From contig DUFB01000076.1 in the NCBI GenBank assembly GCA_011192005.1, positions 1-42,719 of the forward strand: 42,719 nt of DNA. Reading direction: 5' to 3'. Both the position numbers and the translations under genes were made by a program. The notes beneath the pieces were generated by a model. It searched no databases. It was not told the origin of the DNA and was given only the letters and a program-made list of their open reading frames with translations. The stretch is from Dehalococcoidia bacterium. Its GTDB lineage: Bacteria > Chloroflexota > Dehalococcoidia > Dehalococcoidales > RBG-16-60-22. Position 1 is the stretch's first letter; each line of letters starts with the position of its first letter. This document shows positions 4,530 to 23,060 of the stretch, piece after piece.

Positions 4530-4943
4530 TTGACCAGTAAATCGGCTGAAAAACAGGCGCGTGTCGCTTCCCGCAGGCGACTTCGTAATAAATCTGTGCG
4601 TAGTGAAATCAAGACCGGTATCACCAGGGCGGAAAAGCTGATATTTACCGGTGAACTCGAAGAGGCGCAGAAGGCGGTGGTAGCGGCGGTTTCTTCCCTT
4701 GATAAAGCCGCCAATAAGGGGATTCTCCACGCCAGTAATGTTGCCCGGCGTAAAGCCAGATTGATGAAGAAACTCAATCAGGCATCGGCTCAGGCTGCTG
4801 TCGAGCCCGAACCGGAGTCCCAACCGGAAGCCGAAGCTGAAACCGAAGGTAAAGCTGAAGCTAAAGCTAAGGCCGAAGCCAAACCCAAGGCCAAGGCTAA
4901 GACCAAGCCCAGAACAAGAGCCAAAAAAGCCAAGGCTGAGTAA
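4530..4943 (+). CDS. rpsT: 30S ribosomal protein S20 with a long C-terminal tail
   Basis: Primary 16S rRNA-binding protein of the small subunit. Residues 1-86 match S20: the basic N-terminus KSAEKQARVASRRRLRNKSVRS, then helices containing LDKAANKGILH and KARLMKKLNQ. The usual protein is about 85-90 residues. This one continues for some 50 residues of low-complexity Glu/Ala followed by Lys/Ala/Pro/Arg, an acidic stretch and then a very basic one. The start is TTG at 4530 with a GGAGG Shine-Dalgarno 6 nt upstream. It lies directly downstream of rel, possibly co-transcribed. Confidence 0.93.
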   Translation: MTSKSAEKQARVASRRRLRNKSVRSEIKTGITRAEKLIFTGELEEAQKAVVAAVSSLDKAANKGILHASNVARRKARLMKKLNQASAQAAVEPEPESQPEAEAETEGKAEAKAKAEAKPKAKAKTKPRTRAKKAKAE

Positions 4944-18853: not shown

Positions 18854-18882
18854 TTGACATCGAATGAACAACGATATATAAT
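18854..18882 (+). promoter_or_regulatory. Consensus promoter of the threonine leader/operon
   Basis: TTGACA (18854-18859), a 17-nt spacer and TATAAT (18877-18882), a perfect match in both boxes and spacing. The predicted start site is near 18889. Confidence 0.85.
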
Positions 18883-18915
18883 CACGATATCATTGTTATT
18901 GGGGAATACTAGTCG

Positions 18916-19020
18916 ATGGCTCGTAAGAACAACAAGATACAACCGGCTCTGGCTAATTTATCGGGGACTACCACACCCTCTAGGGCTTGTTGTATCTTCG
19001 ATTCGGAGCTAGTGTTCTAG
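18916..19020 (+). CDS. Threonine-rich leader peptide (attenuation)
   Basis: A 34-codon reading frame starts at ATG 18916, 27 nt after the predicted transcription start, with GGGGAA about 11 nt upstream. It contains three consecutive threonine codons (ACT ACC ACA, 18967-18975) just before the second strand of the first RNA stem, and ends at TAG 19018. The peptide (N-terminus MARKNNKIQ, later SGTTTPSRACC) has no family resemblance and is best read as a regulatory leader. The downstream operon makes threonine (hom, thrC), which fits Thr codons as the sensor. Confidence 0.65.
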   Translation: MARKNNKIQPALANLSGTTTPSRACCIFDSELVF

Positions 19021-19072
19021 CAGGATATTTGGAGATACACCATGAGCCCGGGAAATATACCTGGGCTTTTTT
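18934..19072 (+). promoter_or_regulatory. Ribosome-mediated threonine attenuator
   Basis: Three competing pairings are visible. 1:2 is AAGATACAAC (18934-18943) with GTTGTATCTT (18989-18998), 10 bp. 2:3 is TGTATCTTCGA (18991-19001) with TTGGAGATACA (19029-19039), 11 pairs including G-U, extended by GGGCT (18983-18987) with AGCCC (19045-19049). 3:4 is the terminator at 19046-19072. A ribosome stalled on the three Thr codons would sit over the loop and the 5' part of segment 2, favouring 2:3 and read-through. Complete translation to the stop at 19020 would favour termination. This is the classic architecture of amino-acid operon attenuators. Confidence 0.7.
19046..19072 (+). terminator. Intrinsic terminator of the attenuator
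   Basis: GCCCGGG (19046-19052), a 7-nt AT loop, and CCTGGGC (19060-19066) form a 7-bp stem with one G-U pair, followed by six T (19067-19072). It lies upstream of the selenoprotein gene, so it controls entry into the operon. Confidence 0.85.
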
Positions 19073-19097: not shown

Positions 19098-19316
19098 ATG
19101 GTTGTTGAAATCCATTATTGCGTACCGTGAGGCTTTGAATCCCGTGCCGTCGGTCTGGCGGATGAACTGCAAAGAGAAACAGGTGTTGAGGTAAAACTGA
19201 TTCGGGGAGATAACGGAATTTTTAACGTTATTATTGACGGGAGCTGTATCTTTTCCAGAACTGAAACAGGGCGTTTCCCCGAGTCTGGAGAGATAATTGA
19301 TAAATTGAGGTTGTAA
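19098..19316 (+). CDS. Selenoprotein W-like (Rdx family) thioredoxin-fold protein with in-frame TGA (Sec)
   Basis: A 72-residue frame interrupted only by TGA at 19128-19130 (residue 11). It reads VEIHYCVP-Sec-GFESRA, so the TGA falls exactly on the second position of the CxxC/CxxU redox motif of the SelW/SelT/SelH (Rdx) family. The C-terminal half has family hallmarks (GIFNVIIDG, IFSRTETGRFPE). The start is ATG 19098 with AAAGGAG 6 nt upstream; the stop is TAA 19314. A hairpin resembling a bacterial SECIS follows the TGA. Its role is probably a small thiol/selenol oxidoreductase, partner unknown. If Sec machinery were absent, the gene would be a truncated pseudogene, but conservation after the TGA argues against that. 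Confidence 0.8.
19146..19159 (+). promoter_or_regulatory. Candidate bacterial SECIS element
   Basis: GCCG (19146-19149) pairs with TGGC (19156-19159) around the loop TCGGTC. The loop GGU begins 22 nt after the TGA, close to the spacing in E. coli fdhF, where the loop also contains GGUCU. The stem is short, and CC/GG pairs can extend it with a bulge. Confidence 0.5.
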
Positions 19317-19394: not shown

Positions 19395-20675
19395 TTGGCT
19401 AAGAAAAAGAAAGACGAAAAACCACCACGTCATATTTCCAAGCGTCAGCTTTCCAGTATAAAGCGACATAAAAGAAGGCAGAGGTTAATATTTTTCAGCG
19501 GGATTATCATCATTGTCGTCGTCCTTGTTATCGTTTTTGTAGGTATATACATGGGTGAAATACGCCCTTATCACAAAACGATAGCGAAAGTCTATGACAG
19601 GGAATTCAGCGCCCAGTATTTAATGGACGCTGTTGAGTATTTTGGTCAGTACTACTCTCCGGAAACCTTTATTACGCAATTATCAAGTTTAATCAATATC
19701 GCGAGTAACTACACCGTACAGAGTGAGTTGATAAGACGCGGCGCCGAGGACCTGGGTATAACTGTTGAGGATGACGAGGTGAAAGCAAGCCTCAAAGAGA
19801 ACAAGGAGACGGTGAATGACGCCAGCGTCGACTTTACGCGCCTCGGGTTTTTGAACGAAAGGTTATTCGAAGAACATTTTTTGCCTCAGGTACCCACTAG
19901 TGCTGACCAGGTAAATATGATGGCCATGTTTCTGGAAAGCGAAAGTCAGGCAGCCAATATTACTGCTGAATTAGCCAATGGTGGCAACTTTACGGCGCTG
20001 GCCGCAGAACATTCGTTGGATGTATATTCCAAAGAAAAAATGGGTGACCTGGGCTGGCACTCTCGAGAATTTCTGGAATCCGAAATGGGTGCAACAATAC
20101 CCGTTGAATATGCCTTCACCGCTGAAATCGGTGTGTTGAGCCAGCCCCTTTATGACGAAAAGAGCAAATCTATCGGCTACTGGGTCGTCAATATTCTGGA
20201 AAGGGAGGAGGACATCCAGGCTCATGTTCAGGTAATCCTCGTGGGTAGTGTAGAAGAAGCGGACATTGTTATGCAGAAGTTGATAGACGGGGAAGATTTC
20301 GGTGAACTTGCCAGGGAGTTCTCTCAAGATATTTCCCGTGAACAAGGAGGAGACCTGGGTTGGGTAACTCCAGGTACGAGGTCGGAGGCTTTTGACGCGT
20401 ATGTTTTTAACCCGGAATTGGGAGATGTAGGTGTCCTGGGCCCGTTCCACGATGATGAAGTTACCACAACAGGCGGTTACTGGCTGGTAAAGGTTGTGGA
20501 TAGAGAGGAAAATCGACCCCTGGATGAGGAAGAGAGGGAAACCCGTGCCAGCCAGAGTTACGATGACTGGGTAACTCAATTATGGGACGTTGCTGCTAAT
20601 GAGATAGACCGGACTTATCTGACCCCGCAGATAACAACCTGGATAATGGAAAAACTAACGGATAAATATTCCTAA
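19395..20675 (+). CDS. Membrane-anchored parvulin-type peptidyl-prolyl isomerase (PrsA/SurA-like)
   Basis: 426 residues. A basic cytoplasmic N-terminus (MAKKKKDEK to about residue 30) is followed by one transmembrane segment (31-53), so the bulk is extracytoplasmic. A SurA_N-like helical region follows, then two parvulin domains: about 180-270 (LGWHSREFLESEMG, YWVVNILE) and about 276-375 (HVQVILVGS, FSQDISREQGGDLGWV, GYWLVKVVDRE). The family folds secreted proteins or assists their maturation. The start is TTG 19395 with AAGGAG 8 nt upstream. It lies between the SelW-like gene and hom, 16 nt before the hom ATG. Confidence 0.88.
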   Translation: MAKKKKDEKPPRHISKRQLSSIKRHKRRQRLIFFSGIIIIVVVLVIVFVGIYMGEIRPYHKTIAKVYDREFSAQYLMDAVEYFGQYYSPETFITQLSSLINIASNYTVQSELIRRGAEDLGITVEDDEVKASLKENKETVNDASVDFTRLGFLNERLFEEHFLPQVPTSADQVNMMAMFLESESQAANITAELANGGNFTALAAEHSLDVYSKEKMGDLGWHSREFLESEMGATIPVEYAFTAEIGVLSQPLYDEKSKSIGYWVVNILEREEDIQAHVQVILVGSVEEADIVMQKLIDGEDFGELAREFSQDISREQGGDLGWVTPGTRSEAFDAYVFNPELGDVGVLGPFHDDEVTTTGGYWLVKVVDREENRPLDEEERETRASQSYDDWVTQLWDVAANEIDRTYLTPQITTWIMEKLTDKYS

Positions 20676-20691
20676 AAACGAGGTCATGACG

Positions 20692-22005
20692 ATGAGCAGA
20701 AAGAGTATTGGCGTAGGATTAATGGGCTTGGGGGTGGTCGCCGGGCAGGTAGCCAGAGTTTTAACGGAGAAGGCAGCTGACCTCGAGGAGAAAATCGGTT
20801 GTCCTCTGGTCTTGCGGAAAATTAAAGTATTACCCGAAGACCTCTCACGACCGCAGGCGCGCGAGATGTCCTCCGGTCTATTCACCACCAGCGACGACGA
20901 CTTTTTCCAGGAATCCGATATTGATATTATCGTTGAGGCGATTGGCGGTGAAAACCCGGCACTGGGATACCACCGGCGTGCCCTGAAATCGGGCAGACAT
21001 GTCGTCACCTCAAATAAAGAGCTTATTGCCAAGCACGGGGTGGAGCTTCTGGAACTCGCCCATCAACATAACGTCAGCCTGCAATATGAAGCCAGTGTCG
21101 GTGCCGGGTTTCCGTTGATAGCTCCTTTCAAGCATGACCTTGTAGCCAACAGGATTACCGGTATTTTCGCTATTATTAACGGTACGACCAATTATATACT
21201 GACGATGATGGACCGCAAGGGTTCGGATTTTGCTGCGACGCTGGCACAGGCGCAGAAACTGGGTTATGCCGAGGCAAATCCTGAGAATGATATTGAGGGC
21301 TTCGATTCCAATTACAAGCTCGCCATCCTGGCATCGCTGGCTTTCAACATGCGGGTGCGTCCTCAGGATGTATACCGCGAAGGGATTACACGCCTGGCAC
21401 CTCGCGATTTCCGCTACGCACGGGAACTCGGGTTTACCATCAAGCTGCTGGCAATAGCCAAACAGAACGAAGATACCGTTGAAGCCAGGGTGCATCCGGT
21501 GTTTATACCCCAGGAAACACTGCTGGCTAAAGTGGACGGTGTCTATAATGCCGTGCAGGTCATGGGTGACCTGGCTGGCAGGGTGCTCTTCATGGGCGAG
21601 GGAGCCGGTCCTCTGGCAACGAGCAGCTCCGTCGTTGCCGATGTGGTCGGTGTAGCGAGGAAAATCGTTCTCGGTATCGGCAGCCTGTCCACCTGGAAAG
21701 CTGCCTCCGGAAAGCGTATCAAGCCCATAGATGATATTGAAACGCAATATTACATAAGACTGAATGCCGCCGATCAGCCTGGAGTTCTGGCTAAAATTGC
21801 CACGGTATTCGGGGATAACGAGATAAGCATCGCGTCGGCAATACAGCCCGAATCCGATGAAGCAACCGGAACGGCGGAAATAGTCATCATGACCCACCCC
21901 GCCATGGAGAAAGCCATGCAGAAGGCTTTACGTGAGCTCGGGAAGCTCGAGGTGGTTAACGAAATCAATAACTGTATCCGCGTTGAGGAAATAGAAGGAG
22001 GCTAG
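20692..22005 (+). CDS. hom: Homoserine dehydrogenase
   Basis: Reduces aspartate semialdehyde to homoserine, a precursor of threonine and methionine. N-terminal Rossmann motif [36 protein letters not shown], the catalytic domain with [21 protein letters not shown] and [15 protein letters not shown], and a C-terminal ACT domain ([19 protein letters not shown]) that is the likely threonine sensor. The start is ATG 20692, because GAGG is 8 nt upstream; the in-frame ATG at 20686 is only 2 nt from it. 437 residues. thrC begins 2 nt after the stop. Confidence 0.95.
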
Positions 22006-22007
22006 CC

Positions 22008-23060
22008 CTGAAAAAAGGAGTTTTACTGCAATATAAAGAGTATTTACCTGTTAACGATAAAACACCCCTGTTCAGCATCGGAGAAGGCGATACTCCGCTG
22101 GTTCGCTGCGATAAGCTGGCGGAGAGGTACGGCTGCGGCGAGCTTTACTTCAAACTGGAAGGGTGCCATCCCACCGGCTCCTTTAAGGACCGGGGCATGG
22201 TGGTGGCGGTGGCGAAAGCGGTCGAAGAGGGCAGCCGGGCTATTATCTGCGCCTCCACCGGTAATACGAGCGCCTCGGCGGCAGCCTACGCGGCTTATTG
22301 CGGTCTCAGCTGCATTATTATCATTCCCCGGGGAAACATCGCCTTGGGCAAGCTGGCGCAGGCTATCGTTCACGGCGCTAAAATAGTAGCTGTCGACGGT
22401 AACTTTGACCAGGCTCTCTCCATAGTAAGGAGTATCAACGAAAAGCACCCGGTCACTCTGGTCAATTCCCTCAATCCATATCGCATCGAGGGACAGAAGA
22501 CAGCCGCTTTTGAAGTCGTCGACGTGCTGGGTGACGCCCCGAACTACCTTTTCCTGCCGGTGGGTAACGCCGGGAATATTACGGCCTACTGGAAGGGATT
22601 TAAGGAGTATCACGACGCCGGGAAGTCGACGAAAAAGCCGAAGATGTACGGTTTTCAGGCCGAGGGGGCCGCGCCTATTGTCAGGGGTTATCCCATCGAG
22701 AAACCGGAAACCGTGGCTACGGCAATACGCATCGGCAATCCCGCCAGCTGGAAGAAAGCTGAAGCAGCCCGCGACGAGTCCGGAGGCATTATAGATATGG
22801 TCAGCGATGCCGAAATTCTAGCTGCCCAGAAACTGATGGCCGCCGAGGCTGGCATTTTTGGCGAGCCGGCTTCAGCCGCCTCTCTGGCCGGACTGATAAA
22901 GCTGCACAACCAGGGTAGAGATTTCTCAAATCAGGTGATTGTATGCGTGGTTACAGGTACCGGACTCAAGGATACCGAGGTCGCTCTTAAAGACGCTCCA
23001 TCTTTCCTGGAGTTGCCCGCCGACCTGGCTGCGGTGGAGAAAGCCCTGGGACTGGTCTAA
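22008..23060 (+). CDS. thrC: Threonine synthase starting at CTG
   Basis: PLP enzyme converting O-phosphohomoserine to threonine. From CTG 22008 the product reads (M)[14 protein letters not shown], then [25 protein letters not shown] with the PLP lysine at residue 60, [15 protein letters not shown], and the PLP-phosphate glycine loop [12 protein letters not shown]. This matches the family from the first residues. There is no ATG, GTG or TTG in frame between the upstream stop (21984) and ATG 22197, and starting there would delete the catalytic lysine. AAGGAGG (21995-22001) is 6 nt before the CTG. 350 residues. A second CTG (22026) is a less likely alternative. Confidence 0.9.

Follow-up and report, generated by a model that had tools for sequence, protein, structure and literature searches.

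The principle of attenuation is classical, and the common view is that each operon acquired its leader-peptide attenuator independently. In the thrABC operon of Escherichia coli (thrL; Rfam family Thr_leader, RF00506), a leader peptide with eight Thr codons, competing stems and an intrinsic terminator stand ahead of the homoserine dehydrogenase gene. Attenuators of his, ilv and tRNA-synthetase genes, where the position of the ribosome decides between antiterminator and terminator, have been reported in Proteobacteria, Actinobacteria and Firmicutes, in a paper that discusses the repeated independent origin of leader peptides and whose main text leaves Chloroflexi and Dehalococcoides unmentioned (PMC2965389). 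For msrD, vmlR and yxjB, it is reported that drug-stalled translation controls ABC-F or rRNA methyltransferase genes (PMC10314930, PMC9226507, PMC6851288).

We analyzed a stretch of 42,719 nucleotides from a Dehalococcoidia genome (G000, contig 83), hereafter called the window, in which a preliminary description had proposed a threonine attenuator ahead of hom and thrC. The parts of this element are listed in Table 1. The promoter announced as perfect does follow the consensus at every position, the 34-codon leader with ACT ACC ACA is there, the three competing pairings and the terminator with six T could all be located, and Pfam and NCBIfam agree with the selenoprotein, parvulin, hom and thrC identities that had been given. 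We consider it very likely that this element is a ribosome-mediated transcription attenuator sensing charged tRNA-Thr, and one member of a homologous family built on a common Dehalococcoidia chassis. As a prediction from sequence comparison, the name "threonine attenuator" appears well supported. The proposed match with the E. coli thr attenuator holds for the logic, but not for the RNA. The Rfam scan of the window gave only two tRNAs, and no Thr_leader (RF00506) match at the gathering score. The window has three control codons instead of eight, located in the loop between regions 1 and 2 and not in region 1; selW and a parvulin gene with its own promoter intervene; and the homologues of this RNA are Val, His, Tyr, Met and other attenuators within its own bacterial class.

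Table 1. Features of the attenuator and of the genes that follow it, in positions of the window. G022 is a relative in the same family as the genome of the window.
Feature	Positions	Strand	Supporting observation
Sigma-70-type promoter TTGACA-17-TATAAT of the attenuator transcript	18854..18882	+	12/12 consensus; start about 18889
Leader peptide ORF, 34 codons, MARKNNKIQPALANLSGTTTPSRACCIFDSELVF	18916..19020	+	ATG 18916, TAG 19018-19020; sequence
Threonine control codons ACT ACC ACA	18967..18975	+	ACT ACT ACG at the same position in G022
Region 1, AAGATACAAC + GGCTCT, pairs with region 2	18934..18952	+	Duplex and compensatory change in G022
Region 2, GGGCTTGTTGTATCTTC, antiterminator 5' strand	18983..18999	+	Covariance model match; 2:3 covariation
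Region 3, GGAGATACACCATGAGCCC, antiterminator 3' strand and terminator start	19031..19049	+	
Intrinsic terminator 3:4, GAGCCCGGG-N7-CCTGGGCTT + T run	19044..19072	+	
selW-like selenoprotein (Rdx family; CVPU, TGA 19128-19130)	19098..19316	+	Pfam Rdx PF10262, NCBIfam TIGR02174
Separate promoter of parvulin-hom-thrC, TTGAAA-18-TATAAA	19323..19352	+	Conserved in relatives; retained in G022
Membrane-anchored parvulin-type peptidyl-prolyl isomerase	19395..20675	+	Pfam Rotamase
hom, homoserine dehydrogenase with ACT domain	20686..22005	+	Pfam and NCBIfam
thrC, threonine synthase (start codon approximate)	22008..23060	+	NCBIfam TIGR00260 above cut-off

According to local folds, stem 1:2 pairs 18934-18943 with 18989-18998 and is extended by GGCTCT (-26.4 kcal/mol), stem 2:3 pairs 18983-18999 with 19031-19049 (-30.5 kcal/mol) and the terminator 3:4 spans 19044-19068, followed by six T (-15.3 kcal/mol). 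These structures are mutually exclusive because region 2 pairs with either region 1 or region 3, and because the GAGCCC of region 3 doubles as the 5' arm of the terminator; the window thus contains an antiterminator and an intrinsic terminator that cannot coexist. The region 1:2 duplex itself amounts to -21.4 kcal/mol, a value equalled by 1% of codon shuffles, and the chance of three consecutive Thr codons in a 34-codon ORF is roughly 0.5% with the Thr usage of this genome. The whole 187-nt leader is more stable than its dinucleotide shuffles (z = -4.0, with 0 of 200 as stable), but z is only -0.8 when the 3' arm of the terminator is left out, to which most of the stability excess is thus owed. 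Folding energy alone is therefore weak proof, and single-sequence statistics are only suggestive. The decisive support for this putative attenuator is the comparative evidence.

The preliminary description had made the conservation of leader and stems in relatives a touchstone, and G022 keeps the element at the same place. The order nadB-attenuator-selW-promoter-parvulin-hom-thrC-folE is common to both genomes, with a thrC copy 81% identical next after hom in G022. The two leaders differ at most codons, and those outside the GTTTP pentapeptide and the paired segments have mostly changed non-synonymously. GTTTP itself has been kept through three synonymous changes (GGG/GGT, ACC/ACT, ACA/ACG) and none that is non-synonymous, as part of a conserved GTTTPxRA in which the Thr and Gly codons are synonymous. 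In addition, a three-way compensatory change (T to C in region 1, A to G in region 2 and T to C in region 3) leaves both 1:2 and 2:3 paired, the T-A pair of 1:2 becoming C-G; a further pair is kept as G-U in 1:2 and as C-G instead of T-G in 2:3. This pattern is the one to be expected if a single segment is under selection for two pairings that exclude each other. The anti-antiterminator 1:2 is strong in the window and in G022, with one compensatory pair. These are the two known Thr members, both from incomplete assemblies and with three Thr codons each, and the genome of the window, as far as assembled, holds only this copy of the chassis.

A DNA search with the window leader matched only one other genome, G034, where the same terminator module lies before ilvD with the leader MNLQKLNTGLVLIVVVALLCERPGVSAEN. 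A covariance model of these three sequences (R1: window, G022 and G034), searched against the order, found further members, and a second model of 20 members (R2) raised their number. After inspection, and leaving out the short matches L081-L084, 40 members were accepted in 20 genomes of seven families, five of them in the order and two in the same class. The window obtains E = 3.2e-19 with the 20-member model, in which it is itself included, other members having already been found with the three-sequence model. The pattern of the chassis, present in the window, is a GGGCYTGGYGTGTCT-like region 2, a region 3 AGACACA-N-AAGCCCGGG and a terminator CCCGGGCTTTTTT in fixed order, and nearly all family members have a TTGACA-type promoter about 110-140 nt before region 2.

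Over 20 homologues, 92% of the cells of the 2:3 helix are paired and 9 of its 14 pairs have changed on both sides. Its covariation score is 0.219, against 0.141 +/- 0.013 for shuffled alignments (0 of 500 match) and at most 0.067 for slid ones, with an alignment that was fitted to the structure and leans towards it. Stem covariation, which the preliminary description had put forward as a check, is thus found for 2:3, and for 1:2 as the compensatory change in G022 but not in the family at large. Conservation of 1:2 throughout the family was not supported: this pairing is strong in Thr, ilvD and some his members and no better than codon shuffles in most of the family. Elsewhere, other hairpins or the ribosome terminating on the leader may therefore establish the default state. 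Region 2 (window 18982-18999) is usually read in an R-A-W-C-V-F frame and in another one (RPGVSA) in ilvD members, which suggests that conservation acts on the RNA and not on the peptide.

The weak model matches L060-L063, L065-L070, L078, L080, L087, L088, L101 and L105, which lack a fitting leader, promoter or region 2, were discarded as plain terminators or chance. In the phylum outside the class, with few candidates scored per genome, only plain terminators were found, and the matches L132-L134 were rejected as such. A pattern scan of about 85,000 species returned ten stretches, i.e. five Dehalococcoidia members, four chance occurrences and one locus (L109) from the Desulfobacteraceae MAG SURF_4 (minus strand, 4543-4700). 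The leader of the latter, RKTTRRTKRGWAWRG, resembles that of an attenuator and is followed by a truncated asd/argC-like ORF and an argD-like gene. It looks like a separate attenuator sharing the short GGGCTTGG/CCAAGCCC, a resemblance that is possibly convergent or due to transfer.

The genes downstream of the family members were named with Pfam and NCBIfam. The leaders SVVVVVTGAW and DLVVVVSWG precede valS, IHHHTHHSLTTHRAW and similar ones precede hisZ/hisS-like genes, TYYSEYYYSGKAWY precedes tyrS, SLMMMPRAW a homocysteine biosynthesis enzyme (PF01837), LVLIVVVALL ilvD and YYRYYYFYYFSW a DAHP synthase. Arginines are found before ornithine carbamoyltransferase (argF), a weak class (4 and 2), and GTTTP in both threonine cases. 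Cognate residues occupy 84 of the 252 positions before region 2 in 18 leaders, whereas 22.5 +/- 7.7 are expected when leaders are permuted among operons; in 20,000 permutations the maximum was 55, and none reached the observed count. Because related leaders do not count independently, this is not a strict probability. The residues regarded as cognate were chosen by gene name with the leaders already known, but the choices are the obvious ones. If the ribosome covers the standard 15 nt or so beyond its P site, as we assumed here, a ribosome on the first cognate codon would not reach region 2 in any of the 18 leaders. In the window, the predicted edge of a ribosome with the first Thr codon in its A site falls just before region 2; the Thr codons stand at -15/-12/-9, which almost coincides with the positions of the three Met codons in the members before homocysteine genes (-12/-9/-6). 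The synonymous conservation of the Thr codons, the match between codons and genes and the presence of hom-thrC downstream point to a leader with cognate control codons, whose translation is predicted.

Some members deserve a separate mention. Met triplets (MMM or MVM) precede the PF01837 homocysteine gene in five genomes (L076, L085, L086, L093 and L097), which makes a predicted methionine attenuator. In L098 (G146:C53, 12536-12630, minus strand) and L104 (G146:C52), the chassis lies directly before tRNA genes. The L098 operon consists of tRNA-Leu(tag), tRNA-Leu(taa) and tRNA-Gln(ttg), and in its leader region 2 is immediately preceded by CTA CAA TCA TTA, codons that are read by these same tRNAs; it may be a switch sensing its own tRNAs. 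Genes of resistance type follow L051 and L075 (ABC-F), L054, L057, L058, L073 and L096 (MFS), L064, L077 and L095 (GNAT), and L079, L090 and L091 (methyltransferase). Their leaders have no amino-acid runs and are alike within some gene types (AISAGxSPRA for ABC-F, CC-rich for GNAT). Judging from the gene type, such members may sense ribosome-targeting compounds. Finally, an aromatic-rich leader, FGFSFYFWTYKY, is found before a GNAT gene and then a second ORF in L102 (G146:C17).

From the sequence parts, their conservation, their covariation and the codon-gene match, which are directly observed, we infer a scheme of leader translation, stalling, folding timing, termination efficiencies and read-through, with an effect on hom-thrC. 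With enough threonine, the ribosome would pass ACT-ACC-ACA; region 2 would then be either paired with region 1 or covered by the ribosome terminating on the leader, the 3:4 terminator would form, and transcription would end about 180 nt from its start. When threonine is short, a ribosome stalled at the Thr codons, its front ending immediately short of region 2, would part regions 1 and 2; region 2 would pair with region 3, the terminator would lose its 5' arm, and RNA polymerase would enter selW. With no strong terminator in between, it could go on into parvulin-hom-thrC, on top of transcription from their own promoter. For the RNA left free when a ribosome occupies the first Thr codon, the minimum free energy structure combines a partial 2:3 stem and the terminator. 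Antitermination would therefore have to depend on folding timing, before the 3' arm of the terminator is made, as in other attenuators.

The TGA of selW, read as Sec in a CxxU motif, is kept in all homologues found in the order, and the genome of the window has a tRNA-Sec. The parvulin gene is present in 138 of 156 genomes of the order, hom adjoins it in 29 of 30 fetched parvulin loci, and a promoter TTTGAAAA-N-TTATAAATAT lies directly 5' of it in most loci examined that have neither selW nor attenuator. This parvulin-hom promoter shows strong conservation across the order, including the end of the spacer and the -10 element (TTATAAATAT). In nine genomes of the same taxonomic family (G015, G012, G013, G016, G002, G005, G018, G006 and G001), nadB precedes parvulin without selW or attenuator, and only G000 and G022 have both between nadB and the parvulin promoter. 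The attenuator and selW thus look like an insertion ahead of an older operon with its own promoter; a gain in two lineages or a loss in others may both be compatible with this distribution. The preliminary description had placed the whole operon under threonine control. This would stand for selW directly, but since parvulin-hom-thrC has its own conserved promoter, control would reach hom and thrC only by read-through.

Among the points against a threonine switch, the gene directly downstream is selW, which has no known threonine link, hom-thrC has its own conserved promoter, and only two Thr members are known, with no more than three Thr codons each. No attenuator was found at selW elsewhere in the order, and threonine therefore has no obvious link to selW itself; the link would be hom and thrC. 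One could thus imagine a threonine attenuator acting on selW only, parvulin-hom-thrC being driven by its own promoter and unaffected. The TTGAAA/TATAAA promoter between selW and parvulin, conserved in most relatives examined, would agree with such an arrangement, which we nevertheless find rather unlikely: no convincing plus-strand terminator was found between selW and hom, the gene order is kept in both attenuator-bearing genomes, and a Thr sensor makes sense only with hom-thrC. We lean towards a real contribution of the attenuator to hom-thrC transcription. The selenoprotein would in any case be tied to threonine-responsive transcription.

An attenuator of the same family could also sense general translation stress or a ribosome-targeting drug, with selW as its redox target and the Thr run as an incidental feature. 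In about half of the family, the gene that follows is of the ABC-F, MFS, GNAT or methyltransferase type, and the leaders are devoid of obvious control-codon runs; the first gene here does encode a redox selenoprotein, and the Thr codons are only three. On the other hand, the changes in the Thr triplet are all synonymous although the rest of the leader has diverged, Met members likewise have three control codons in almost this position, hom and thrC are downstream in both genomes, and selW is found elsewhere in the order without attenuator, all of which makes such a sensor quite improbable in the window. As to chance, the element could be an ordinary nadB terminator or part of an unrelated transcript, its short ORF being spurious and the complementarity of its segments accidental. 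Chance alone can be expected to produce a site resembling a terminator, and the stems without the terminator are not unusually stable compared with shuffles (z = -0.8). This explanation hardly survives the perfect promoter, the G022 homologue and the covariation and codon matches of about 38 further members; unless the alignments are wrong, it appears already refuted by the comparative data. We thus retain a threonine attenuator as the preferred reading.

How does this family relate to known systems? It shares with his, ilv and tRNA-synthetase attenuators the decision by ribosome position, but we saw no homologous chassis across many specificities described for them (PMC2965389). The msrD, vmlR and yxjB attenuators, as they are reported (PMC10314930, PMC9226507, PMC6851288), parallel the L051, L075 and L090 members by gene type; the Dehalococcoidia chassis also serves amino-acid genes. 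In the open-access literature, we found no description of a Chloroflexota leader-peptide attenuator or of one chassis re-coded across so many specificities, an absence that is not proof of novelty, and Rfam scans of the window and six other loci gave no family for the chassis and no T-box match. If true, such a family, homologous throughout but with control codons that can be exchanged, would illustrate the ways in which these switches spread and acquire new specificities, and would provide a predictable code for reading Dehalococcoidia regulation from sequence. Dehalococcoidia are mostly uncultured and include relatives of dehalogenating bacteria; from a 180-nt leader, an amino-acid specificity or likely drug-responsive genes could be assigned in this class. 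The chassis also suggests a ready-made platform for synthetic sensors.

T-box riboswitches, which stand before synthetase and biosynthesis genes, likewise adapt a single RNA framework to many amino acids, but the sensor of the chassis would be a translated leader with its ribosome, instead of direct tRNA binding. Promoter, region 2, region 3 and terminator are conserved in the chassis, and the control codons would have been exchanged to suit the downstream gene. It seems to us reasonably probable that Dehalococcoidia use a single homologous, re-codable attenuator RNA as Firmicutes use T-boxes, its frame having been copied before at least eight kinds of amino-acid-related operons (Thr, Met, His, Val, Tyr, Leu/Ile/Val, Arg and aromatic), a tRNA-Leu/Gln operon and several resistance-type genes, with a few swapped codons setting the specificity.
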